DNA from: a virus | Strand: one strand, 5' to 3' | IMG/VR virus record: IMGVR_UViG_3300025889_000564 | Location: 1-31,722 of that record | DNA length: 31,722 nt | Shown: in pieces, positions 3,191 through 29,560 of the stretch | Layout of the letters: each line of letters opens with the position of its first letter | Position numbering within the stretch: position 1 is the first letter of the stretch | Position numbers and translations under genes: made by a program | Notes under the pieces: model-generated | Seen by the model: the letters and a program-made list of their open reading frames with translations, nothing else | Databases searched by the model: none | Told to the model about the DNA's origin: nothing

Positions 3191-3619
3191 TCAGAAGGGC
3201 AGGTCGTCAGAGTCGGCTAGCGAATCGCCAGCGGTGGCAGCGAACGGCGAACCGCTCAACTCCATCGGTTTTGATCCACTGCCTGGGACGTACAGCCCCT
3301 TCAAATTCGTCCGCCCGTTGTACTCCTCGGCCTTCGCCTGGACTTGCTTGCCAGTCATCACGGTCGCGATATGGACGCGCCAGCCCGCCGATACGAGCGC
3401 CTGTGCATCACAGCCGAACTCTATCAGCTTCTCGAAGATGCGGTCGTTGTTCGATTTGCCGTCCTTGCCCTTGTTGGAGCCCAGCCAGCACATCGAATTG
3501 ACGGTTTCGCCGTCGACGAACATCTGGATTTGAAACGCCGGTTTGTTGTTTTGGCCGACCTCGACAACCTCGAATCCGACCCACTCGCCCGTGTAGTATT
3601 TGCCCGCTTCGAGTTGCAT
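3191..3619 (-). CDS. SSB-like single-stranded DNA-binding protein
   Basis: A 142-residue protein with a beta-rich N-terminal half (YYTGEWVGFEVVEVG, QIQMFVDGE), consistent with an OB-like fold, and a flexible C-terminus ending D-S-D-D-L-P-F (136-142). That acidic tip is the hallmark by which SSB proteins recruit DNA-metabolism partners. The start ATG 3619 overlaps the stop of the annealing-protein gene as TAATG. Gene order nuclease, annealing protein, SSB is typical of phage recombination modules and supports a role coating ssDNA during recombination or replication. The body diverges from classical SSB, so the call rests on tip, size and context. Confidence 0.7.
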   Translation of the reverse strand: MQLEAGKYYTGEWVGFEVVEVGQNNKPAFQIQMFVDGETVNSMCWLGSNKGKDGKSNNDRIFEKLIEFGCDAQALVSAGWRVHIATVMTGKQVQAKAEEYNGRTNLKGLYVPGSGSKPMELSGSPFAATAGDSLADSDDLPF

Positions 3620-4287
3620 TACTGCACCCCCTCACGCGCGGCGGCGAGGCGTTCTTTGATGGCTTCCGTTGCGGTCGCCGTCTTCGCTTCCGTCGCGTCG
3701 ATAACCTGCTCGATGGTCAGTTCCTGCGCGTCGTACATGACCGCGCCGACGACTTCGGCGGCGTACCAGCGGTGGAAATTCGAGATGCACCGCGCGTGCA
3801 GCATGTTGCGCGGGATCTTGTCGTAGTTGCCGACCTTACCACCGCCGCGCGAGTTGTTCACCCATCCGGCCTTCTCCGCGTCCTCCATCGTCACCGTCAG
3901 GTCCAGCGGCGCACCGTTCACGTCCTGCATCGGCTGGCCCTTGTACCAGAACCGCAGCGTTACCTGCTTTTCCGTGTGAACCACCGGACGCCAGTCGTAA
4001 CCGGCCTGCTTCAGAAACATCGCGCGGGCATTGGCCGACAGCGCCGGTTTGCCGCTGATGATGTGGATCATCTGCAACGACAGAGCCGGGTTGAGGCCAA
4101 GGTCGCGCCCCATCGCGATGGCGTAGGCGTTCGCGTCCGTCGCGTAGACCTTCGCCGTCAGGGCGTCGGCCCGCGCCGCTTCGGCCTGCTGCCGCGCCGA
4201 CGTGTTCTCCACAATCGTGTCAAGAATCGACGGCTGCGCCGCCTGTTGCACTTGCGCCGCTTCCGGCGTCGTCTGAGTCGTGCTCAT
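3619..4287 (-). CDS. RecT-like single-strand annealing protein (recombinase)
   Basis: A 222-residue protein starting at ATG 4287, in ATGA overlap with the nuclease gene; the longer frame to 4485 is shadow. After a Gln/Ala-rich N-terminus, residues about 55-92 carry AYAIAMGRDLGLNPA and HIISGKPALSANARA. A beta segment follows (VTLRFWYKG), then KIPRNMLHARCISNFHRWYA at about 157-176. These blocks match the pattern of phage RecT-superfamily annealing proteins, where a Pro-Arg-x-Met-Leu-x-Ala-Arg block is conserved. It would anneal the 3' overhangs made by the adjacent exonuclease, with the SSB-like protein as partner. The family is assigned by pattern memory and neighbours, not by search. Confidence 0.65.
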   Translation of the reverse strand: MSTTQTTPEAAQVQQAAQPSILDTIVENTSARQQAEAARADALTAKVYATDANAYAIAMGRDLGLNPALSLQMIHIISGKPALSANARAMFLKQAGYDWRPVVHTEKQVTLRFWYKGQPMQDVNGAPLDLTVTMEDAEKAGWVNNSRGGGKVGNYDKIPRNMLHARCISNFHRWYAAEVVGAVMYDAQELTIEQVIDATEAKTATATEAIKERLAAAREGVQ

Positions 4288-5279
4288 GCTTTCTCCTTCT
4301 TCGTTGTCACCCGCAGCGGCCTGGACAAAGACCGAACCGCCACTTCCTTGTAAATCTCCGGGTACTTCAACTTCAGCCCCGCCGCGTCGATCCGCATGGA
4401 CTCCTGCGGCGCGTAGCTGACTTTGTACGGCCCCGCGTAAGCCGTCGCCGTGTCGCCCAGCGCTTCGACCAGCCGCGACTGGCACTGCTCTTTGTGCTCC
4501 TCGGCAGACTTCACAATCGCCCGCGCATCGTCGAACTGCTGGACGATCTGAATCAAGTCATCCCGCCGCTCGTCGCCGCCGACGTTGGCCCATTCCTCAT
4601 CCCGACAGCTCGCGCCGAATTCGCAGCCGTCGCAGCGGGTGTCCCGCGGATTCAGCGGCGGCGGCGGGTTGCGGTCGGTGACGCGCTGCCAGAACTCGTC
4701 CACTCGCTCCGATACCAGCGCCATCAACTCGTCGTCGTACTCAAATTGATAGAGCTTAACCTCGCCGTCGCCGTCGTGTTCACGGTTCCACGCGGCTATC
4801 GCGCCCCACTTCCAGCCCGTGAGCCGCATGTACCACTGGAGTTGCAGGACATACTGCTGCGGCACGCCGTCAAATAGCCATTTCCAGTACGCCTGACGGC
4901 CAATGCACTTGATCTCCAGCACTCCCGGCCCGCGCTCGTCCATGGCAACGATGTGCCGGTCGATATGCGCCCCTTCGTGCTCCATTCCCTGCACGGGGGC
5001 TTTCCGGCGCAGCTTTAAGCCGAACTGCCGCTCGACCTCATCGGCAATCCAGTCTTCCATGACGGTGCCGACGCGCATCGGGCCGGTTTCGCGAAACGGG
5101 CGATCCTCGGGTTGGTGGGTCTTGCGATACCACAGCCGGCGGGCGCAGCCGTAAGGCTCCAGGTTCAGGACGGCGGCGATCTCGGACCCGCCGACGTATC
5201 CGCGCCGATTGCTGGCGTCCTTGGGGATCGGTGCGGGGTTGTGGGCTTCGAGTTGGTGGAAGCGGTGGGTGAAGGTCAT
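4284..5279 (-). CDS. YqaJ/lambda-exonuclease-like recombination nuclease
   Basis: A 331-residue PD-(D/E)xK nuclease. The start ATG 5279 is in ATGA overlap with the upstream gene. Motifs in order are YVGGSEIAAVLNLEPYG (28-44), VMEDWIADEVER (73-84, E75), HIDRHIVAMDE with D107, VLEIKC with E122/K124, and VPQQYVLQLQWYM (139-151, the Gln motif). These are the expected active-site blocks of phage recombination exonucleases that resect dsDNA ends 5' to 3'. Residues C45, C216, C219 and C225 (C-x2-C-x5-C at the C-terminal side) resemble the iron-sulfur cluster layout of AddB/Cas4-type nucleases. It pairs with the annealing protein immediately downstream. Confidence 0.88.
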   Translation of the reverse strand: MTFTHRFHQLEAHNPAPIPKDASNRRGYVGGSEIAAVLNLEPYGCARRLWYRKTHQPEDRPFRETGPMRVGTVMEDWIADEVERQFGLKLRRKAPVQGMEHEGAHIDRHIVAMDERGPGVLEIKCIGRQAYWKWLFDGVPQQYVLQLQWYMRLTGWKWGAIAAWNREHDGDGEVKLYQFEYDDELMALVSERVDEFWQRVTDRNPPPPLNPRDTRCDGCEFGASCRDEEWANVGGDERRDDLIQIVQQFDDARAIVKSAEEHKEQCQSRLVEALGDTATAYAGPYKVSYAPQESMRIDAAGLKLKYPEIYKEVAVRSLSRPLRVTTKKEKA

Positions 5280-5461
5280 GCCAACCCCACAGCAACCGCG
5301 ACCACAGACGCGAGCGCATACCACGCCGAGCGGTTGAACTGCGCGTTGTGGTAGCGCCAGTTGTGCTTACCCTTTGGCCCGAAGGCGCGGCGGAAGCACA
5401 GCCACGCGAGGATCATAAGGTCGGCAGCGGCGCAAAGCCAGAGGATCACGGCGGGGGTCAT
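5276..5461 (-). CDS. Small two-helix membrane protein
   Basis: A 61-residue protein with two hydrophobic helices, about 3-23 (PAVILWLCAAADLMILAWLC) and 45-60 (AWYALASVVAVAVGLA), joined by a basic loop (RRAFGPKGKHNWRYHN). It overlaps both neighbours through ATGA. It could be an early membrane protein, for instance for superinfection exclusion, but nothing in the sequence proves this, and holin function is unlikely given its place among early genes. Confidence 0.55.
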   Translation of the reverse strand: MTPAVILWLCAAADLMILAWLCFRRAFGPKGKHNWRYHNAQFNRSAWYALASVVAVAVGLA

Positions 5462-5646
5462 TGCGTCACCGCCTCAGCCGTCGCCATCGTCACGGGCAGT
5501 AGGCCAATCGCCCTCATCCGCGCCTCTCCGAGGTAGTGCAGCGCATAGTCCAGTCGCCCCGCCTTCGCCATCGCCAGCGCGTTCTGCGCCAGTTGGATCA
5601 GTTCGCTGTCGACGACTCTCTTACCTGGCAATCCAAGTGGTTCCAT
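5458..5646 (-). CDS. Small helical hypothetical protein (62 aa)
   Basis: Starts at ATG 5646 after GGAGGAGCCAAAGAG and ends in an ATGA overlap. The product contains a TPR-like helical pair (LIQLAQNALAMAKAGRLDYA and LHYLGEARMRAIG). One TPR-like hairpin is too short for a confident repeat call. No family is recognised. A strong GC-rich hairpin lies immediately upstream of its ribosome site. Confidence 0.5.
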   Translation of the reverse strand: MEPLGLPGKRVVDSELIQLAQNALAMAKAGRLDYALHYLGEARMRAIGLLPVTMATAEAVTQ

Positions 5647-5660
5647 CTCTTTGGCTCCTC

Positions 5661-5688
5661 CCCGGCCCGCGTCGGCTTGCGGGCCGGG
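5661..5688 (-). promoter_or_regulatory. Strong GC-rich hairpin between early genes
   Basis: A perfect 10-bp inverted repeat, CCCGGCCCGC at 5661-5670 and GCGGGCCGGG at 5679-5688, with an 8-base loop. It fills the gap between the gene ending at 5704 and the ribosome site of the gene starting at 5646. There is no U tract on the minus-strand side, so it is more likely an mRNA-stabilising or processing element, or a factor-dependent pause, than an intrinsic terminator. Confidence 0.5.
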
Positions 5689-5703
5689 TCTGTGTTGATT
5701 TCG

Positions 5704-5949
5704 TTACGCCGTGCGGCCCATCGGCGGGTTGAACCGCGCCTCGTTGTGTCCAACGCGCCGCCCGCGTTCAAACATCGCGGCGTCACAGATGTCGTCCACC
5801 TGCCACCGCTGGATTCCGTACTCGCGGGCGATGGTGAATCGGCTAGTGCCGAACACTAAAGCTCGCCTTGCGATGCTGGCTTTTTCGTGCTGATTCAACT
5901 TCACGGGAACAAGCGCCCGCGAATGTACCACTTGCAGCTGTGCGGTCAT
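5704..5949 (-). CDS. Putative helix-turn-helix DNA-binding protein (81 aa)
   Basis: Residues about 20-62 (EKASIARRALVFG, TSRFTIAREYGIQRWQVDDI) read as a tri-helical helix-turn-helix, with AREYGIQRWQVDDI as the likely turn and recognition helix. The tail is basic and short. The start ATG 5949 overlaps the upstream stop as ATGA, so it is co-translated with the ribbon-helix-helix-like gene that follows the control region. It is the second gene of the leftward early operon, the usual position for a Cro/CII-type regulator. The regulatory role is inferred. Confidence 0.6.
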   Translation of the reverse strand: MTAQLQVVHSRALVPVKLNQHEKASIARRALVFGTSRFTIAREYGIQRWQVDDICDAAMFERGRRVGHNEARFNPPMGRTA

Positions 5950-6149
5950 GGCTTTTCTCCCTTGGGTCTATCATCGTGAGTGCCTACCAGCAGGTCGATA
6001 GCCTGCTCGATAGCGCCACCGATCATCAGTCCGCGAGTACGAGCGTAAATCGCTAGTCGCTTTGCCTTCGACGGGCGAAGTTTCCAGTGGTACGTTCTCC
6101 GTTCCTCGATTTCGATATGATTAGGTGTCGCTTCGGTGTCGCTGCTCAC
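5946..6149 (-). CDS. Ribbon-helix-helix-like regulator, first gene of leftward operon
   Basis: A 67-residue protein. From about residue 18 the pattern strand (RTYHWKL), helix (PSKAKRLAIYARTRG), turn, helix (GAIEQAIDLLVG) fits the Arc/CopG/MetJ ribbon-helix-helix fold, in which paired strands read the major groove. The start is GTG 6149; no ATG is available before the fold, and only a weak AGG lies upstream. It is the first gene behind the minus-strand promoter at 6156-6185 and faces the divergent gene at 6220. It could repress its own promoter through the tandem repeat there. Confidence 0.6.
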   Translation of the reverse strand: MSSDTEATPNHIEIEERRTYHWKLRPSKAKRLAIYARTRGLMIGGAIEQAIDLLVGTHDDRPKGEKP

Positions 6150-6155
6150 AACCTG

Positions 6156-6185
6156 ATACTACAGTCAGACAGTCAGACATTGCAA
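6156..6185 (-). promoter_or_regulatory. Leftward early promoter
   Basis: On the minus strand, TTGCAA (6185-6180) and TAGTAT (6161-6156) are separated by 18 bp, each matching four of six sigma70 consensus bases. Transcription would start near 6148-6150, almost at the GTG start of the first early gene, giving a very short or absent leader. The tandem operator-like repeat fills the spacer. TTGCAA is self-complementary, so it could serve as a -35 in either direction, but I see no convincing matching -10 for the rightward gene. Confidence 0.55.
6163..6178 (+). repeat. 8-bp tandem repeat, candidate operator
   Basis: Two exact adjacent copies of AGTCAGAC lie between the -35 and -10 boxes of the leftward promoter, and a further CAGAC occurs at about 6195. 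Short tandem direct repeats in a promoter spacer are the usual binding mode of ribbon-helix-helix repressors, which dock as adjacent dimers. Both flanking genes encode proteins of that apparent fold. The function is inferred from position and pattern. Confidence 0.55.
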
Positions 6186-6219
6186 GCAGAAAAACAGACT
6201 TTTCAAAACAAAGTGCTTT

Positions 6220-6597
6220 ATGAAAACTTCCAAATGGCGTCCGACTCTTCTCCTGCCTCCCGAGGCTGAAAACCAACTCCAAGTGCTCGCCGCGAAACTC
6301 GGCGTGAGCCTTCAGGAAATGATGCGCGACGCCGTAATGTCTCTACTGCGCCCGCAGTCCATGCCGTTGAGCAAAAAAGATGAAGATGTGTTAGCATTTC
6401 TAGGCGACATCACGCTAAACAGCCCGAAAATCGCGGAGTCTATTAGAGATCTAATCGCTAAGTGTGCGGAGGAATACACGGCTCATGGGCACTCTACACT
6501 CGATGAACGAATCGAGACAGAGCTTGGAAAAGCGCAGCGAATTGTGGGTGCGCCTGCGCGAAGTACGAGACGCAATAAGGCGACTCGAGGCGCTTGA
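6220..6597 (+). CDS. Ribbon-helix-helix-like protein, candidate lysogeny repressor
   Basis: A 125-residue plus-strand protein, divergent from the early operon. Residues 7-44 fit ribbon-helix-helix closely: strand RPTLLL, helix PPEAENQLQVLAAKLG, turn VS, helix LQEMMRDAVMSLLR. The C-terminal half is helical and probably oligomerising. No ribosome site precedes ATG 6220, suggesting a leaderless or weakly translated mRNA. Codon use looks less GC-rich than the neighbouring genes. Its position opposite the early operon is where temperate phages carry the repressor, and no CI-like protein was found elsewhere. The repressor role is inference. Confidence 0.6.
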   Translation: MKTSKWRPTLLLPPEAENQLQVLAAKLGVSLQEMMRDAVMSLLRPQSMPLSKKDEDVLAFLGDITLNSPKIAESIRDLIAKCAEEYTAHGHSTLDERIETELGKAQRIVGAPARSTRRNKATRGA

Positions 6598-6646
6598 AAA
6601 GGAGATTCTCGCCCGCCTCGAAAATGAAAAAGCCCCCCGGCGTTAA
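6485..6646 (+). CDS. Small coiled-coil protein overlapping the repressor-like gene
   Basis: A 53-residue frame starting at ATG 6485, preceded by GGAGGAA with 10-base spacing and overlapping the 3' end of the upstream plus-strand gene by 113 bp. The product (ELWVRLREVRDAIRRLEALE in its middle) is a strongly charged helix, predicted coiled coil. Its TAA lies in the loop of the terminator hairpin. The upstream codon ATG 6464 is less well placed. The long overlap leaves open that only one of the two frames is expressed. Confidence 0.5.
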   Translation: MGTLHSMNESRQSLEKRSELWVRLREVRDAIRRLEALEKEILARLENEKAPRR

Positions 6647-11628: not shown

Positions 11629-11847
11629 CTACTGCTGGTCGGGGCGAGGCCCGGTTGCTCCCGTTCCGCGCGAGGGCGGCGGGGTGTATAGCCCGTGCAG
11701 GGCAAGTACAGTCTGCAAACTGCCGACGACGAGAATCAGCCAATGGCCGAGCGGGTCATCGGCCAGAAGTCCCTGCGCCTGCGCCCCGTAGACGACTAGG
11801 AACACGAAATGCAGGAACATTTGGATAGGCGCGGGTAGGTGTTTCAT
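11629..11847 (-). CDS. Small two-helix membrane protein, candidate holin
   Basis: A 72-residue protein with two hydrophobic segments, about 9-28 (QMFLHFVFLVVYGAQAQGLL) and 35-54 (HWLILVVGSLQTVLALHGLY), and a short polar Pro/Gly/Arg tail. This is the class II holin layout. ATG 11847 overlaps the upstream stop as ATGA. With the adjacent coiled-coil membrane protein and the endolysin upstream, it is the best holin candidate in the window. Small membrane proteins are hard to classify, so the holin call is contextual. Confidence 0.6.
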   Translation of the reverse strand: MKHLPAPIQMFLHFVFLVVYGAQAQGLLADDPLGHWLILVVGSLQTVLALHGLYTPPPSRGTGATGPRPDQQ

Positions 11848-13952: not shown

Positions 13953-15770
13953 TTAGCACGTTCCGCCGGTCATAATCCCGGCTGAGAACGTGAGGGTGCA
14001 ATCCGATGCGCCGCCGGCGGCCCGCACCGTCTTCGTGCCGGTGAACGCCGTTCCACTAGGAGGAATTATCGTTCCGGTAACGTCGAGATCCTGGGTCCAA
14101 GTTTTAAGCCATCGACCTGTGGCGGCACCAAGAGAACCACTCAGAGACGTGGCCGGCTGTACATTTCCGCCATGCGTTCTGATAGATGTCGTTCGAACCA
14201 TGTTCCAGTAATTCGTCGACGATCCGAGTACGTAAGTGTCCGTGGTCGCCGGAATGAGATCCCCAGTCACGTTACCGCTAATGTTGAAGTTGCTGGTGTA
14301 GACGTTCGCCCAGCGGAAGGAGCCGCCGCCGAGAATGTAGGTATTGTTGGCTGATGGGGTCAGGTCGCTGGACACGCTTCCGGTGAGGGTGAGGCCAACG
14401 AACGTGGCATCCCTGGAGGCATTGATAACAGTGGTTCCGCTCACGCGGTAAGCCGGACTACCGGTGGCGTTAAAAGTGGTTGTGGAGACAATCCCGCCGA
14501 AGTTGGCGCCAGCGGTGGTTGTCAGGAACCCATTCTCCTCCATCACAAAGTGTTCTGTTCCGTTATGGTCAAGCACCCACCGAGACACAGCGCCAGATGG
14601 AGTTGTCCCAGCCGACCACGCGCCAGCAGTTGAACTGCTGGCCCCGACTGTCCAATAAACTTTCTGGTTTGTACCTCTTGTCGCTCTATCGAGAACAAAA
14701 GAGTTTCCGTTGATAACCCAGGACTGGGCATTGACGGTAACTGTGTCATTGAACGTCTGTGCGCTAGTAAATGTTTGACCGATATTGGTGCCAGCCAGGG
14801 TGTACGAGGCGTTCTGCGGGGTCAGGACGCGCGTGGTGGCGGTAGTGAGGCCGTCAACCTCAAAGCGCAACTGCTTGGATGTGTCAGAACTTCCAGTAAC
14901 AATGGATGTTGTGTCAACAGCAGGCAACCCACCAGGGCATCCAGTACAGGACCCGGTGATCGTGAGGTTGGCAACGGTCGCGTTGCGGCTGGCGTCGATG
15001 ACGGTGGTCCCAGCCACCTCGATGGCACCCGATCCGATAACGTCGATCGAACCGTTGACCGTCAGTTCCTCTGTTACCGCCGCAGTTCCAATGCCGACAC
15101 GCCCATCGGCAGCGACATAAAGGTCGTTGATCGGCACCGCGGATTCGTCGTCCTTGAACCGGCTCAGGGTCCAGTCCTCGGTTAGATAGCTCCAGTACAT
15201 CCCCCTCGTCCACCCAGAGGTATTCGGAATGGTGGTTCCGAAGAGAATCGCGCTGTTCGCACTAGTCCTAAACCGCGCTGCAACGACTTGATTGTATGGC
15301 GTATAGGCGTATCCGTTCGAGCCGTACACGGAGAGCAGTCCTTTGGACGGCGCCGTTTCACCGATTCCGGTCACGCCAGAGACCGACGCCGTTCCCGTCA
15401 CCGTGAGCGTTTGTCCCGGCGTCGAGGTGCCAATGCCGACGCTTCCCGTGGTCCGGTACGCATCGGAGCCAGAAACAGTCCAGCCCCCGCCAGCCGGAGT
15501 AGACCACGACAATACACCCGCGCCGTTTGTCGTCAGCGCTTGGCCGTTGGTGCCGTCCACCGACGGCAGATCCCACAACAACGACGTACCAACCGACTGC
15601 GGCGCGCGAAAACCAACATGCTCCTGCCCATTGGTCCGCCGCTCCTGTAACCGGATTTCGCCCGTAAGGCTTCCAGCGCTCTGCACGACAGTGAGAGGTG
15701 TGGACACCTGCGAAAACGCGACAGCGCCCGCCAGAACGCCAGCGGCGATGATTTTATTGAGTGTCGTCAT
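13953..15770 (-). CDS. Fibre-like protein with signal peptide (cassette A)
   Basis: A 605-residue protein from ATG 15770; a longer in-frame start at 15815 overlaps the hub gene. Residues 1-21 (MTTLNKIIAAGVLAGAVAFSQ) are a predicted signal peptide. Fibre-type modules follow: VGFRAPQSVGTSLLWDLPSV, NGQALTTNGAGVLSW, VGIGTSTPGQTLTVTG, two related VI(D/N)ASR-DATV-type blocks, and three copies of a D-L-x-P...T-Y-x-L-G...W repeat near the C-terminus. The end (TVRAAGGASDCTLTFSAGIM) resembles a terminal module of other fibre-like proteins. The hub gene upstream suggests a tail fibre; the signal peptide suggests export. Both are kept open. Confidence 0.75.
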   Translation of the reverse strand: MTTLNKIIAAGVLAGAVAFSQVSTPLTVVQSAGSLTGEIRLQERRTNGQEHVGFRAPQSVGTSLLWDLPSVDGTNGQALTTNGAGVLSWSTPAGGGWTVSGSDAYRTTGSVGIGTSTPGQTLTVTGTASVSGVTGIGETAPSKGLLSVYGSNGYAYTPYNQVVAARFRTSANSAILFGTTIPNTSGWTRGMYWSYLTEDWTLSRFKDDESAVPINDLYVAADGRVGIGTAAVTEELTVNGSIDVIGSGAIEVAGTTVIDASRNATVANLTITGSCTGCPGGLPAVDTTSIVTGSSDTSKQLRFEVDGLTTATTRVLTPQNASYTLAGTNIGQTFTSAQTFNDTVTVNAQSWVINGNSFVLDRATRGTNQKVYWTVGASSSTAGAWSAGTTPSGAVSRWVLDHNGTEHFVMEENGFLTTTAGANFGGIVSTTTFNATGSPAYRVSGTTVINASRDATFVGLTLTGSVSSDLTPSANNTYILGGGSFRWANVYTSNFNISGNVTGDLIPATTDTYVLGSSTNYWNMVRTTSIRTHGGNVQPATSLSGSLGAATGRWLKTWTQDLDVTGTIIPPSGTAFTGTKTVRAAGGASDCTLTFSAGIMTGGTC

Positions 15771-15772
15771 GG

Positions 15773-17644
15773 TTAATCGAAGTTCACCGAGTAGGGAGCG
15801 CACACGGCCCACCATTTCCCGTCCGAACGGCCCCGGAAATGGAACGCTGTCACCGCGCCGCTTTTTGCTGGGATGTTGGTGTCGAAGTCGGTATTGAAGT
15901 CTGCGTCAAAGCTGATCGTGTACGGCCCAGCGCCCTGCGTGATGTAGACGTACAGCACATCGCCCGCGCTGGGAGTGTACGGGCTCGCGATGGTCGTATT
16001 GGCCGACAGCGTGATTTCAAGCGACGTACTTCCGCCGCCCGTTCCGACGCCAGAGACAGCGCCAGCCGCGCCAATCGTGGATGCGGTTCGGCCTCCGCCG
16101 GCAAACGACTTCCAGTAGTCGACTACGCCGATATACCGGGTCGCATCAATAGCTTTTACGCCGATCCGCAGCCACTGCCCGCCCACGTCGGTGATCGAGA
16201 CTTGGCGGATTAGGTACGTGCCGCTCGACACGTTGAAATAGCTATTCGCGATGGTCTGAAGCTGGCCCGGCCGCAATGAGTGCGCCGTCGCCTCTACCTG
16301 CTGATCCGTCTCATAGCTGATCTCGTTGACGATGCGCTTCCGTTCGGCGATGATTGCGTTGCCATCGGCCAGCGCCTGCGCCTGCCCAATTCCAGGCCGC
16401 TCAAAGACGCCCTGATAGATTCCACTGTTCCCTTCAGCTGTAGCTGTCGAGGAGATGTCAGCCGAATCGTCGGTGTAAATGACGTTCGCGCCGAACTTCC
16501 GGTACGTCACCACTAGCGTGTCTGAGGTCGTCAGCACGGCTTCATCCGGGTCCTGACGGATTGTAGCCGTGCCTTCCTCGTAGTAGTACGCGCGGTCTGA
16601 TTCGGCCAGCCAAACGGCGAATTCCTTCTTTTCGCCATTGACCGACACGGAAATCATCTGGCCGACCCGATAGGCCAGGGTCCAAGAGGTCGCGCTGCCA
16701 TTGCCGGTGAACGTCTCTTCCTCGTAGCCGATCTGGTCCCAGTCAACGCGCATCAGCGCCGCGTTGACTTTGTCCTCCCGAGTGCGGCGAACGGACAAAT
16801 TACGGTAATTGCCACCACTGCTCGACAAAGAAAACGGCGCAGTCGTGAAAGTGCGCGGCTGGAAGTACAGCTCCCGCTCTTCGTCGATCCACCATTGGAA
16901 ACCGGACACTTCCGCTAGTTGGCTGATCGCCTCCGCAACGCTCGTTTCCTCGTTCCAAAGGATCGTATCGACCACGGCCCCTTTGGCGACGTTTGTATCT
17001 CCCAGCGGCTCGGACGTGGCCGCGTCGACCAGCAGCGCCTTGACCACGTCGCCCGCGCGGTTCGCAACCAAGACCTGCTCAAGCGTCCCGGCGTCGATGA
17101 TGTTGACCGCAGCGCCGCCCGACGTGAGCGACAGCTTCAGCGTCGAGGTGCCAGCAGAGACAACGTAATACTCAATGGTCGAATCCAGCCCACCGCAGAG
17201 GGCCCCATTCGCGTGCGCTCGCACCTTCACCCGGTCGCCGTTGCTCAGCCCGTGACTGCCGACCGTCGTTAGGGTGTCGGTCGACGGATCGGCAGTCAAC
17301 AGAAAGTTCCGCGAGTACCGCAGCGGCCGCCCGTTCGCCACATCCCAGCAATAGCGGCGGTCCAAGTACTGCTCCCACGTCACCCCGCGCAGCGCATAAC
17401 GGCGAAACGTCGGCGCGGCCTCGGTGAGTGACATTTCATTCACTTCATCGACCGAGCCCGCCCACAGTTTCGACGCGCCCTCGAATAGTTCGATGTCCTG
17501 TCCGCACGTCGGGCGGAAGCTGGCGTTAGCCGACTGCACGACGACATCCAACGTCGCCCGGTTGCCGAGCGATGCAGATACGTTCAGCGTGCCGGGGACG
17601 GCTTCCACCGTGGTCCCGCCGATCTTGACGATAGGGTCAGGCAT
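15773..17644 (-). CDS. Tail hub/baseplate protein (Tal-like)
   Basis: A 623-residue protein. The N-terminus, IVKIGGTTVEAVPGTLNVSA to LFEGASKLWAGSVDEV, matches the opening beta domain of siphophage tail hub proteins that continue the tail tube and gate DNA exit. The middle region has a hub-like mixed alpha/beta composition (SGFQWWIDEERELYFQPRTF). The C-terminus (about 540-623) is a Gly/Ser-rich linker followed by a beta module (LVYVYITQ-like, FHFRGRSDGKWWAVCAPYSV) resembling fibre-tip domains. The start ATG 17644 overlaps the tape measure stop as TAATG. Position directly after the tape measure gene supports the call. No separate Dit gene is seen. Confidence 0.8.
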   Translation of the reverse strand: MPDPIVKIGGTTVEAVPGTLNVSASLGNRATLDVVVQSANASFRPTCGQDIELFEGASKLWAGSVDEVNEMSLTEAAPTFRRYALRGVTWEQYLDRRYCWDVANGRPLRYSRNFLLTADPSTDTLTTVGSHGLSNGDRVKVRAHANGALCGGLDSTIEYYVVSAGTSTLKLSLTSGGAAVNIIDAGTLEQVLVANRAGDVVKALLVDAATSEPLGDTNVAKGAVVDTILWNEETSVAEAISQLAEVSGFQWWIDEERELYFQPRTFTTAPFSLSSSGGNYRNLSVRRTREDKVNAALMRVDWDQIGYEEETFTGNGSATSWTLAYRVGQMISVSVNGEKKEFAVWLAESDRAYYYEEGTATIRQDPDEAVLTTSDTLVVTYRKFGANVIYTDDSADISSTATAEGNSGIYQGVFERPGIGQAQALADGNAIIAERKRIVNEISYETDQQVEATAHSLRPGQLQTIANSYFNVSSGTYLIRQVSITDVGGQWLRIGVKAIDATRYIGVVDYWKSFAGGGRTASTIGAAGAVSGVGTGGGSTSLEITLSANTTIASPYTPSAGDVLYVYITQGAGPYTISFDADFNTDFDTNIPAKSGAVTAFHFRGRSDGKWWAVCAPYSVNFD

Positions 17645-25362: not shown

Positions 25363-26010
25363 TCAGCGACCGAGGACGCGGTAGCGGCGGGCCTTGATAG
25401 CCAGCGCCAAACGCGCCTTTTGTTCGCTGTCATCTGCGCCGTGACGGGCAGAAAATTCACGGGACCGCAGGCGTTCCAGCCGTGGGTCCATACTCAAAAA
25501 CTTCGCGCCAGGGTCAGCGCCAATCGGGACCACGCTGATTTCGAACGGTTGCCACGAGGTCGCCATGTAGTGCTTACGCTTGGCCTTCTTGTCCTCTTCG
25601 GCGAGTTCGATTTTGTTGATCTTGACGCCCATCGAAACGTCGCGAAGCGTGCCGTCCTCGATGCGCTGCCAGATCGGGTCCACGTCCTCAGCCTCGGAAA
25701 ACCGAAGCGTTGCCACGTAGCCACCGGCTTCGCGACGGGGGTTTTCCACAGCGCCAATCACGTCGAGAGCGCTGTATTTCGAGTGGCCATTGAGGACGCG
25801 ACCACGGGCGATCAACTCCGACAGGTCCGCGCCATCCATGGAGAACGACAGGTCGTAGGATTCGTCCGTCCACCAGTCGTAGCGCTCGACCTTCGCGCCG
25901 GAGTAGAACAGCACGTCGCGGCGACGCGGCTCTTTCGCTTCGTCCTCAGACAGCGAGGCGACGAGGTAGCCAGGTGCCGCTTGGATTGATTCGAGTAGTT
26001 CAGTGCTCAT
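25363..26010 (-). CDS. Prohead maturation protease (HK97 gp4-like, S78)
   Basis: A 215-residue serine protease. RGRVLNGHSKYSALDVIGAV contains the likely catalytic H76, and TLRDVSMGVKI contains S126. The block SWQPFEISVVPIGADPGAKF follows, as in U35/S78 prohead proteases. The C-terminal tail is basic and likely self-processed. It lies 41 bp before the major capsid gene, whose N-terminal coiled coil it should cut. ATG 26010 follows GGGGACA. Confidence 0.92.
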   Translation of the reverse strand: MSTELLESIQAAPGYLVASLSEDEAKEPRRRDVLFYSGAKVERYDWWTDESYDLSFSMDGADLSELIARGRVLNGHSKYSALDVIGAVENPRREAGGYVATLRFSEAEDVDPIWQRIEDGTLRDVSMGVKINKIELAEEDKKAKRKHYMATSWQPFEISVVPIGADPGAKFLSMDPRLERLRSREFSARHGADDSEQKARLALAIKARRYRVLGR

Positions 26011-26019
26011 TGTCCCCGC

Positions 26020-27018
26020 CTATGCGATCAGTTTCAAAAACTCTTCTTCCTCAACCAGCCACCGCGCCCGCTCGTATCGCGCTTGCGCCCCCTGTGCTTT
26101 TTTCAACAGGATTGCCACAGAGCCGCGCCTCGATACCGACTTACTCACTCGCGCATCAGCCACGAGCGATAAACGCGCTCCCGTCGCCGCTGGAGCCTTG
26201 ACGACGGAAACCGGAGAGGTGCCGCCAAGGGTGGGTCCACCGCTGCCCTCGTAGCGGAAAATCGACCAGTATGTCGTGCGCCAGATCGGCGCTTGCTCTA
26301 CCCGCCGAATCCACCACGATCCGCCGCTGCCAGCTTGCTCCTGCTCCTGCTGCGGTGTGGCCTCGACGTACTGTGTCGCCGCTGCGCCGCCAACCGTTAC
26401 GCCGCCAGTTGCTGCGTACGGGTACTCAGTCGCGCCAGCCGATAGATACGATGTGTCCGCAGCGCCAGCTAAAACCGTGCCGCCAGACGCCGCTGGAGAG
26501 TACGTCCTCGCCAGTACCGCCGAGCCGCCGAGCGTCGCGCCGCCCGATACGGTCGCGGTGTAGACCGCGATCTCTGATGTTGCCGCCGCGCCGCCGAGCG
26601 TTACGCCACCGGACACTGTGGCGATCAGCGTGCGGGCGATGACCGCAGTTCCGGCCAGCGACGTTCCGCCAGAAACCGTTACCGCGTATGTTCTTGCAAG
26701 AGCCGCCGCCCCGGCCAGCGTTACGCCGCCACTGGGCGAATAGGTGTATGTCGTCGAGCCGCTGACATACTCGGTAGCCGCTGCCCCGGCCACGACCACG
26801 CCGCCGGAAACCGACGCCGTGAAAACCGTCGATTTCGAGGTGGTCGCCGCTCCGGCGAGCGCTACACCACCGCTGGCGATCCAGTATTGCGTGATGCCGA
26901 ACAGCTCATTGCGCGAAAGATTGCTTTTTGCTGTGTCGGCATTGCCGAACTCATGGTTGCGCTGGATCGAGGTGCTGCTGATCGGAAGCGCTGGGTAAAG
27001 CTCTACATTGCGAGCCAC
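26020..27018 (-). CDS. Tandem-repeat beta protein of the head gene cluster
   Basis: A 332-residue protein from GTG 27018. From about residue 49 to 265 it contains nine copies of an S-G-G-x-x-L-x-G-A-A unit with a period of about 18-25 residues (examples: SGGVALAGAA, SGGVTLAGAA, SGGVTLGGAA, TGGVTVGGAA), plus a Gln-rich/Trp break near 222-250 (TPQQEQEQ, GSWWIRRVEQAPIW). The C-terminal 50 residues are charged and helical (RGSVAILLKKAQ, ARYERARWLVEEEEFL). It is probably a beta-helix or stacked-hairpin structural protein. Inserted between portal and protease with two other uncommon genes, it could be a head fibre or decoration. Confidence 0.7.
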   Translation of the reverse strand: MARNVELYPALPISSTSIQRNHEFGNADTAKSNLSRNELFGITQYWIASGGVALAGAATTSKSTVFTASVSGGVVVAGAAATEYVSGSTTYTYSPSGGVTLAGAAALARTYAVTVSGGTSLAGTAVIARTLIATVSGGVTLGGAAATSEIAVYTATVSGGATLGGSAVLARTYSPAASGGTVLAGAADTSYLSAGATEYPYAATGGVTVGGAAATQYVEATPQQEQEQAGSGGSWWIRRVEQAPIWRTTYWSIFRYEGSGGPTLGGTSPVSVVKAPAATGARLSLVADARVSKSVSRRGSVAILLKKAQGAQARYERARWLVEEEEFLKLIA

Positions 27019-28222: not shown

Positions 28223-29560
28223 TTAGTCTGACTCCTCGATACCAACCATCGCGCCGTTTTCGTCGCGGATGATTCGCTTGGTTTTGTTCGGCTTAGGAAC
28301 GTGAACGGTAAGGTTCATCGGCTGGCCAGATTGCGCCATTTGCTGCTGCTGCTGTTGGCCCGCCATATCCACAGGCACCATCGCGCCTTGAACCATGAAA
28401 ATGTCGCCGCCGTCGTAGCTGTTCAGGCCCTCTTTGCGGCGGATCTCGTTTGCGTTCATCGCCCCGATATTCCGCATCGACGAGTAAAACGACGCCCGCG
28501 CCGCAGAATCGCCACGCATAAGCGCGTCGAGGTTGAATTCGATGTACCAGCGGGCCGACTCGCGCGGGCCGAGTAGCTGCATGTTCAGCCGCTTTTCGAT
28601 GCGCGTGCATTCTGGGCGCACCGTGTCGGTTACCCACTCGATGCCCTGGTGCTCGATGTTGTTGTTCGTGCTGCGGTCGAGGTCGCCGATTTTGTGCGGT
28701 GGAACACGATAGCCGCGCGCGATTTCGGCCACGCCGAACTTGCGCAGCTCCAGAAACTGCATATCGCTGTGCTTGATCGGCACAGTCTTGATTTCCATAC
28801 CCTCTTCGAGAATCCCGAGACGGCCCGCATTGCGGACGCCGCCGAACCGCTCAAGCATGTAGTTAAGGATTCCCTCTTTGGTCGAGGTCGTCAGCTTCTG
28901 CGGGTGCGAGATGTAGGCGGGCGGGATGCCGCCCTTGGTGAAGAAGTTCACGCCGTAGGCTTCCGCCGCCGCCTGACCCTCGATAGAGTTCCGCATACAC
29001 TCAATCGGGCTCATGCCCTTCAGCCGGTCCACGCCGTTGTAGCCGCGCCCGGGGATATGCAGCAGGTCGGACGAAACATACGTCTCGGTCGTGCCGTTGT
29101 TGCGATAGGTGTAGACAATGATCCCGGTTTGGCGGTCGCGCGAAACGTCCATCAGTTCCGGCGTCAGCGGATGGAGCGCGCTGACCTCGTTGCGCCCGTT
29201 GGTTTCGATGCGCGCGTAGAAGTTGCCGTCGATGCACAGATCTTGCTCGACCGTCTGCCAGAATTCAAAAGCAGACATGTAATCGTTGGGCGAATCGTGC
29301 AACAGGCGATGCAGCGGGTGGTCGCGGTCGATGCTGCGGTTGTCGCCGTCGCGGCGGTAAATGTTGCACGGCAGCGAACCGATCGTTTCAGACCGCAAAG
29401 AGACGCAAGCAGCCACCGCATTGATGCGAAGCGCGGTGTCACCGCTGGCGAACTGCGCGATATACGACCCCATTGGACCGCTCACGGGCGCGTACCAGAA
29501 ACCGTCGTCGGGAGGAGGAGTAGCGCCGAGCTTGACTAGCATTTTTCCGAAGGTGTTCAT
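28223..29560 (-). CDS. Portal protein, HK97 family
   Basis: A 445-residue protein. Motifs are AVAACVSLRSETIGSLPCNI, HPLHRLLHDSPNDYMSAFEF, NGFYARIE-like and LHIPGRGYNGVDRLKGMSPI, then FGVAEIARGYRVPPHKIGDL, all characteristic of the HK97 gp3 portal family. The portal ring forms the DNA gate at one capsid vertex and docks the terminase and connector. ATG 29560 overlaps the large terminase stop as ATGA. The C-terminus is Gln/Met-rich (QQQQQMAQSGQPMN) and probably flexible. Confidence 0.93.
   Translation of the reverse strand: MNTFGKMLVKLGATPPPDDGFWYAPVSGPMGSYIAQFASGDTALRINAVAACVSLRSETIGSLPCNIYRRDGDNRSIDRDHPLHRLLHDSPNDYMSAFEFWQTVEQDLCIDGNFYARIETNGRNEVSALHPLTPELMDVSRDRQTGIIVYTYRNNGTTETYVSSDLLHIPGRGYNGVDRLKGMSPIECMRNSIEGQAAAEAYGVNFFTKGGIPPAYISHPQKLTTSTKEGILNYMLERFGGVRNAGRLGILEEGMEIKTVPIKHSDMQFLELRKFGVAEIARGYRVPPHKIGDLDRSTNNNIEHQGIEWVTDTVRPECTRIEKRLNMQLLGPRESARWYIEFNLDALMRGDSAARASFYSSMRNIGAMNANEIRRKEGLNSYDGGDIFMVQGAMVPVDMAGQQQQQQMAQSGQPMNLTVHVPKPNKTKRIIRDENGAMVGIEESD

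Follow-up and report, generated by a model that had tools for sequence, protein, structure and literature searches.

A repeat protein gene in a phage head cluster belongs to a three-gene cassette that may encode a virion appendage

What is a protein built from short repeats doing among the head genes of a tailed phage? The question is raised by a 332-residue protein, here called REP332, encoded in a 31,722-base IMG/VR virus record that we analyzed over its full length (hereafter the window). The record carries a minus-strand structural cluster of siphovirus type, with genes for terminase subunits, portal, protease, capsid, connectors, tail terminator, tail tube, chaperone, and tape measure. 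It fits the HK97-type order TerS-TerL-portal-protease-capsid-connectors-tail on one strand, interrupted by the cassette described below. The first-pass annotation of this DNA had considered it plausible that REP332 forms a stacked beta structure serving as a head fiber, a decoration, or a host-binding spike.

Repeat Architecture of REP332

The nine repeats claimed at first pass are borne out by a relaxed motif, [ST]GG...[AG]G[ATS], which occurs nine times (residues 49, 71, 96, 116, 136, 158, 178, 204, and 259; spacings 22, 25, 20, 20, 22, 20, 26, and 55); 20,000 shuffles of the REP332 residues contain it 0.016 times on average and twice at most. The strict form SGGxxLxGAA, which had been given for all nine, is found in four, the others having the relaxed form only. 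Eight copies are contiguous, from about residue 46 to residue 226, and a 32-residue insert splits them from the ninth (table 1); the repeats fill the stated two thirds of the protein if the insert is counted, but not otherwise. Identical residues of the 10-residue cores share a codon in 46% of 240 comparisons and Tandem Repeats Finder detects no DNA array at repeat length, in agreement with the earlier view that the copies have diverged at the DNA level and are no recent expansion. The C-terminus is charged as described, but the helix ascribed to it amounts to a single short one (324-331) of very low model confidence.

In an off-diagonal comparison REP332 obtains a repeat score of 476 with a best lag of 20 (200 shuffles: mean 19, maximum 94). 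Among the 18 window proteins tested the same detector is also positive for the tape-measure protein (z 27), and it gives a moderate internal-repeat score (z 7, lag 35) to a 620-aa protein encoded at 13953-15815, 3' of the tail genes; thus, the score alone cannot tell repeats from low complexity. Ala, Gly, Ser, Thr, and Val together account for 203 of the 332 residues.

REP332 has no significant match to any Pfam, PHROG, or NCBIfam family and contains no enzyme or lectin domain recognized by Pfam. Full-length homologs were absent from the phage collection, and the IMG/VR viral contigs yielded only one near-identical contig of 13,764 bases, which agrees with the window at 11,698 of 11,700 compared bases, both mismatches falling outside the cassette. 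A sequence search of the PDB gave two matches, at chance level. The repeat profile retrieved a bacterial protein kinase chain (PkwA, E 2e-4) from the PDB, a match that we read as compositional and set aside.

Table 1. Features of the cassette and its flanks in the window.
Feature	Position	Strand	Basis or remark
Portal protein, upstream flank of the cassette	28223..29560	-	Pfam Phage_portal, E 4.5e-101
g130, small beta protein, 130 aa	27830..28222	-	Pfam Gp80, sub-threshold; phrog_10467
g268, conserved beta-sandwich (jelly-roll-like) partner, 268 aa	27022..27828	-	449 relatives; AlphaFold2 model
REP332, repeat protein, 332 aa	26020..27018	-	GTG start; ORF read from sequence
REP332, N-terminal 45 residues, ahead of the repeats	26884..27018	-	Direct reading
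REP332, eight contiguous SGGxxLxGAA-type repeats of 20-26 residues, about residues 46-226	26341..26883	-	
REP332, 32-residue insert (residues 227-258) with several W, R, Q, and E, splitting repeats 8 and 9	26245..26340	-	
REP332, ninth repeat core, SGGPTLGGTS	26215..26244	-	
REP332, charged C-terminal segment with acidic-then-aliphatic tail EEEEFLKLIA, and stop	26020..26214	-	
Head maturation protease, downstream flank	25363..26010	-	phrog_4523 (major head and protease protein), E 3.3e-37

The Cassette and Related Loci

REP332 does lie between portal and protease, as first noted, but two more genes, g130 and g268, separate it from the portal. The three follow one another in the order g130, g268, REP332 with few bases between neighbors, and REP332, the third, directly follows g268, 3 bases away and in the same orientation. 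The protease, assigned through PHROG, scores 16.7 bits against Pfam Peptidase_S78, under the cut-off.

In 11 of 11 related loci (L004-L014 in our numbering of loci, which we use below) the reading frame of the portal overlaps that of the protease, and g130, g268, and REP332 all went undetected in the stretches retrieved, some of which are partial. Their portals are 68.5-70.7%, their capsid proteins 75.7-77.9%, and their proteases 33-40% identical to those of the window. Since these loci represent few lineages and the proteases are this divergent, the cassette may have been either gained here or lost there.

Recurrent Linkage of g268 to Repeat Genes

A profile scan of the IMG/VR viral contigs returned 449 relatives of g268, which itself has no significant Pfam match and no PHROG family. 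We assembled 81 loci from the best 80 of these relatives (77 loci), one further search, and one phage record, after setting aside the twin of the window and duplicates; 4 of the 81 lack a called g268, and 66 are left once g268 copies at least 90% identical are removed. The gene after g268 encodes a repeat protein in 32 of the 62 loci with a called next gene, and no repeats were scored in the other 30. At offsets -4 to -1 and +2 to +5 around g268, taken as a control, repeat proteins number 29 of 449, an enrichment with a Fisher p of 2e-17 that is nominal because the loci share ancestry. Gene calls were automatic; a second g268 was missed on L036, and the repeat gene of L112 was first missed and later seen, so that 32 of 62 is probably too low. 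Among the 32 repeat proteins the best lag is 19-23 residues in 24 and longer in 8.

Other shared features are partial. An N-terminal block ending in a W-x-DWFFG-like motif occurs in 25 of 34 repeat proteins directly after g268 (14 of these served as HMM seeds), and REP332 does not match the resulting HMM up to E 100 with filters off. The acidic-then-aliphatic C-terminal tail of REP332 recurs in 8 of the 34, versus 20 of 1,059 other ORFs, although the pattern was composed after the sequences had been inspected and is a minority feature.

Head genes are prominent in the neighborhood of g268. Among the 25 families listed of 126 found upstream are terminase, portal, and small virion families, with phrog_644 in 15 and phrog_3758 in 13 of 142 proteins; among the 25 listed of 154 downstream are head morphogenesis, protease, and capsid families and also endolysins, with 2-4 members each of 104. 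These scans covered 142 of 149 upstream and 104 of 116 downstream candidates, all non-repeat proteins of 90-700 aa outside L027-L029 and L032, and one member may match several families. In a prophage of Rubrivivax pictus W35 (L112), g130 and g268 come after head protease, capsid, and two genes lacking an assignment, and are followed by the gene for a 243-aa repetitive protein and then by those for head-tail adaptor and head closure. Low complexity is pronounced in this repetitive protein, which scores 477 against a shuffle maximum of 280.

The survey also brought out peculiarities of single loci. On L054 (4912-10275; contig shared with L024) six tandem g268 homologs, with a 127-aa gene in mid-array and repeat proteins on the flanks, represent an expansion of the partner gene into paralogs. 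Upstream of its three g268 homologs, L120 (1320-2600) encodes three short proteins whose repeats measure 23-24 residues, and the one of these proteins that was scanned against Pfam had no match. In the phage record MW202795.1 (L032) g268 sits between two repeat proteins of one type, and g268 and one repeat gene (3453-4259 and 4262-4636) have no annotated CDS in the deposited record. A Hyphomicrobium MAG (L117) encodes a collagen-repeat protein (5169-6620; Pfam Collagen, E 1.2e-13) directly 5' of its g268 homolog. The g268 domain is preceded by an extra N-terminal part of about 130 residues on L027, L028, and L029, and a distant g268 relative is present in Pseudanabaena phage PA-SR01. On L113 and L115, contigs binned as Paceibacterota or Patescibacteria, g268 homologs stand near chromosomal-looking genes, for TatC (Pfam E 1.7e-39) and a PAS/histidine-kinase protein, respectively, which points either to mis-binning or to a cellular use of the family. 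The terminase large subunit of L030 (5884-8205) is apparently interrupted by an intein (Pfam Intein_splicing, residues 222-429, E 4.7e-5, below the cut-off).

Repeat Turnover and Glycan-Active Domains

The repeat units vary greatly among phages (LAATEAxDT, GSYTLTGQxA, TSQAQT, LSSSGVSTNAF, and others), and their sequences are mostly unalignable between phages while g268 stays alignable. In pairs drawn from the window and the 34 loci with a repeat protein directly after g268, the repeat proteins match (E < 1e-10) in 9 of 58 pairs at g268 identities of at least 60%, in 10 of 190 at 50-60%, in 3 of 238 at 40-50%, and in 1 of 104 below 40%. Among the closest relatives of the window g268 in IMG/VR, L034 and L036 carry other kinds of repeat, and the next called gene on L035 encodes a non-repeat protein. 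Repeats resembling those of REP332 occur on L061 (193 aa), L110 (910 aa), and L111 (499 and 639 aa). These share with REP332 a unit SGG/SGN-x-x-L/V/F-x-G-x-A of about 20-22 residues but differ from it in copy number, N-terminal domains, and gene location, and none has a named function. On L110, which also has a g130-like gene close by, the array lies ahead of the tape-measure gene (phrog_8462, E 7e-48), and no g268 was detected on the examined stretches of L110 and L111; neither the head location nor g268 is thus universal.

Glycan-active domains are found on two proteins linked to g268. On L125, right after two g268 genes, N-terminal 22-residue repeats are joined to an alginate lyase (Pfam Alginate_lyase, E 1.3e-18), and the gene directly after g268 on L055 encodes a polysaccharide deacetylase domain (Polysacc_deac_1, E 3.2e-17) plus repeats. 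A repeat protein of L111, which has no detected g268, approaches the lectin-like Laminin_G_3 at 25.3 of the 27.6 bits needed. The scan took in 66 proteins, namely 51 of the 62 encoded directly after g268 and 15 others picked by hand; its remaining hits are to four non-glycan families of one member each, two of them phage tail-protein families (Dit_like and DUF2460).

On balance we lean, by a little better than an even chance, toward REP332 as the repeat-stalk (or payload-bearing) part of a three-gene virion-appendage cassette that moves between unrelated tailed phages, whose structural clusters, chiefly those of the head, receive it. In this view the conserved component is the jelly-roll-like g268, which would probably serve as base or joint, and g130 resembles small fiber proteins. 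The repeat protein would be a beta-rich stalk, in which every 20-23 residues would contribute about two short strands, carried on the virion and projecting from a presumed attachment site on head or neck, where it might touch host-surface glycans either itself or through a fused enzyme domain. The structural, external, host-facing role proposed at first pass is in part supported, by gene order and by the relatives, in which repeat genes recur 3' of g268, terminase, portal, head-morphogenesis, and protease genes (and some endolysins) are among the neighbors, and glycan domains appear on L125 and L055; what had been missed is the cassette of three genes.

Structural Models and Alternative Readings

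The AlphaFold2 model of g268 is a confident beta-sandwich (pLDDT 95.2, pTM 0.92). Its structural matches are weak and tied, mostly to jelly rolls, the best being a TNF ligand (Z 5.3). Foldseek gave low TM scores against the PDB and, in a viral library, good matches solely to uncharacterized proteins of uncultured phages; searches of the PDB with g268 and g130 profiles gave no convincing match. A jelly-roll-like partner among head genes could be a capsid decoration, with g268 as a cement protein on an HK97 shell and REP332 as a flexible surface tether lacking a specific receptor, and the matches to chains from the capsids of cyanophage Pam1 (Z 5.0), KHP30 (Z 4.2), and BPP-1 (chainmail jelly rolls, Z 4.2) are in keeping with this. 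These Z values, however, equal those of non-phage jelly rolls and lie under the level that the tool rates informative, and the fusion of glycan enzymes to two of the repeat proteins linked to g268 would be unexpected for a cement role. We consider this reading unlikely.

The case of g130 brings up the tail. The window protein belongs to phrog_10467 (function unknown; E 1.5e-22), is 63% identical to its counterpart on L110, and matches cyanophage proteins (E 2e-8 to 6e-8), one of which is annotated as a tail fiber rope protein. It also touches Pfam Gp80 (PF23140), the family of fiber I of podophage GP4, over residues 10-124 (E 2.3e-5), at 25.2 bits against a gathering score of 27. REP332 might on these grounds be the stalk of a tail or neck side fiber whose gene is only located in a head cluster, as L110, where the array nearest to that of REP332 stands directly before a tape-measure gene, would also suggest; in addition, gp35 of Alishewanella phage LSH1 was matched by its authors to the GP4 fibril that links an adhesin to the tail nozzle collar (PMC13243795). 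We hold this to be quite unlikely: the families beside g268 are prominently those of terminase, portal, head morphogenesis, and protease, and of 22 g130-like proteins just 1 has a Gp80 match, below the cut-off. In 17 of the 66 loci a g130-like gene is found no more than two genes upstream of g268.

For REP332 itself an AlphaFold2 monomer, built on a 13-row repeat alignment, shows about two short strands per repeat and no confident fold (pLDDT 35.4, pTM 0.34; pLDDT below 50 in 316 of 332 residues), leaving the stacked beta structure suggested at first pass a candidate. In Foldseek this model, too poor for a meaningful search, returned nothing below E 1 and solenoid look-alikes above that value only. 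One could also see in REP332 a low-complexity filler that is intrinsically disordered, weakly selected, and linked to g268 by hitch-hiking. This would agree with these pLDDT values, with the biased composition, and with the lack of an alignable homolog next to the closest g268 relatives, but is very improbable given a regular spacing (20 or 22 in five of seven contiguous steps), residues kept while codons diverged, a linkage that recurs over phages whose terminase and portal families are of many kinds, and the statement by the LSH1 authors that poorly predicted segments, suspected of repetitiveness, consistently accompany the payload domain (PMC13243795).

Returning to the appendage cassette, its support comes from the linkage of repeat genes to the position after g268, the head-gene neighbors, the W35 prophage, the 11 cassette-free loci, the domains on L125 and L055, the joint presence of g130 and SGG repeats on L110, and the LSH1 module. 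Weighing against it are the poor fold of REP332, its unmatched N-terminus, and its want of an enzyme or lectin domain, together with the repeat-free loci (30 of 62), the modest frequency of g130-like genes, the endolysin neighbors, the other repeats of L034 and L036 and their absence on L035, the rarity of the tail pattern, and the exceptions L110 and L111.

A wider proposal, which we advance as tentative and somewhat short of an even chance, is that g268 marks a widespread, hitherto unnamed system of exchangeable appendages, in which a g268 among head genes is combined with a stalk of wholesale-replaced repeats and varied glycan enzymes, so that, independently of the tail, phages could swap the host-surface contacts of head or neck. 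A phage repeat gene of ordinary appearance has in any case turned out to be a member of a recurrent cassette. If the proposal is true, repeat proteins that phages encode in large numbers without annotation would gain a testable role, and adhesion or glycan-degrading devices would be encoded in head clusters and not in tail-fiber loci. With 449 relatives in one collection, g268 provides a simple sequence handle to find such devices, and the prophage of the sequenced strain W35 makes the cassette model directly testable.

Comparison with Known Systems

Text searches retrieved no published general description of such a cassette besides that of LSH1, a weak indication of absence since subscription papers were mostly out of reach. 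The capsid fibers of Agrobacterium phage 7-7-1 were not taken as support, the fiber proteins being called unknown by the authors. Fiber I of Ralstonia phage GP4 (gp80, PF23140) is like the cassette in the match of the window g130, below the Pfam cut-off, and unlike it in that of 22 g130-like proteins a single one has the match. According to PMC10966104, the neck fiber of Anabaena phage A-1(L) is likewise the product of three genes in one operon (gp82-gp81-gp80) and extends from the head-tail junction. It is, however, a chain of trimer beads, with gp81 in about 14 trimers, and not a repeat within one polypeptide chain.

The closest parallel is the "extra structural module" gp34-gp35-gp36 of Alishewanella phage LSH1, here compared by its description in PMC13243795. 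Within LSH1-related genomes its genes are never found apart; half of the IMG/VR genomes with an LSH1-like hub and side fiber have them, and its proteins were detected in virions by the authors' mass-spectrometry survey. The LSH1 module differs in lying downstream of the lysis genes and in a payload with a lyase-like N-terminal domain. In both cases, nevertheless, three genes co-occur, which in LSH1 specify a GP4-fibril-like protein, an Ig-like beta-sandwich, and a payload that is in part poorly predicted. As far as the descriptions can be set side by side, the LSH1 module thus appears similar to the cassette of the window and is the nearest published description that we found.
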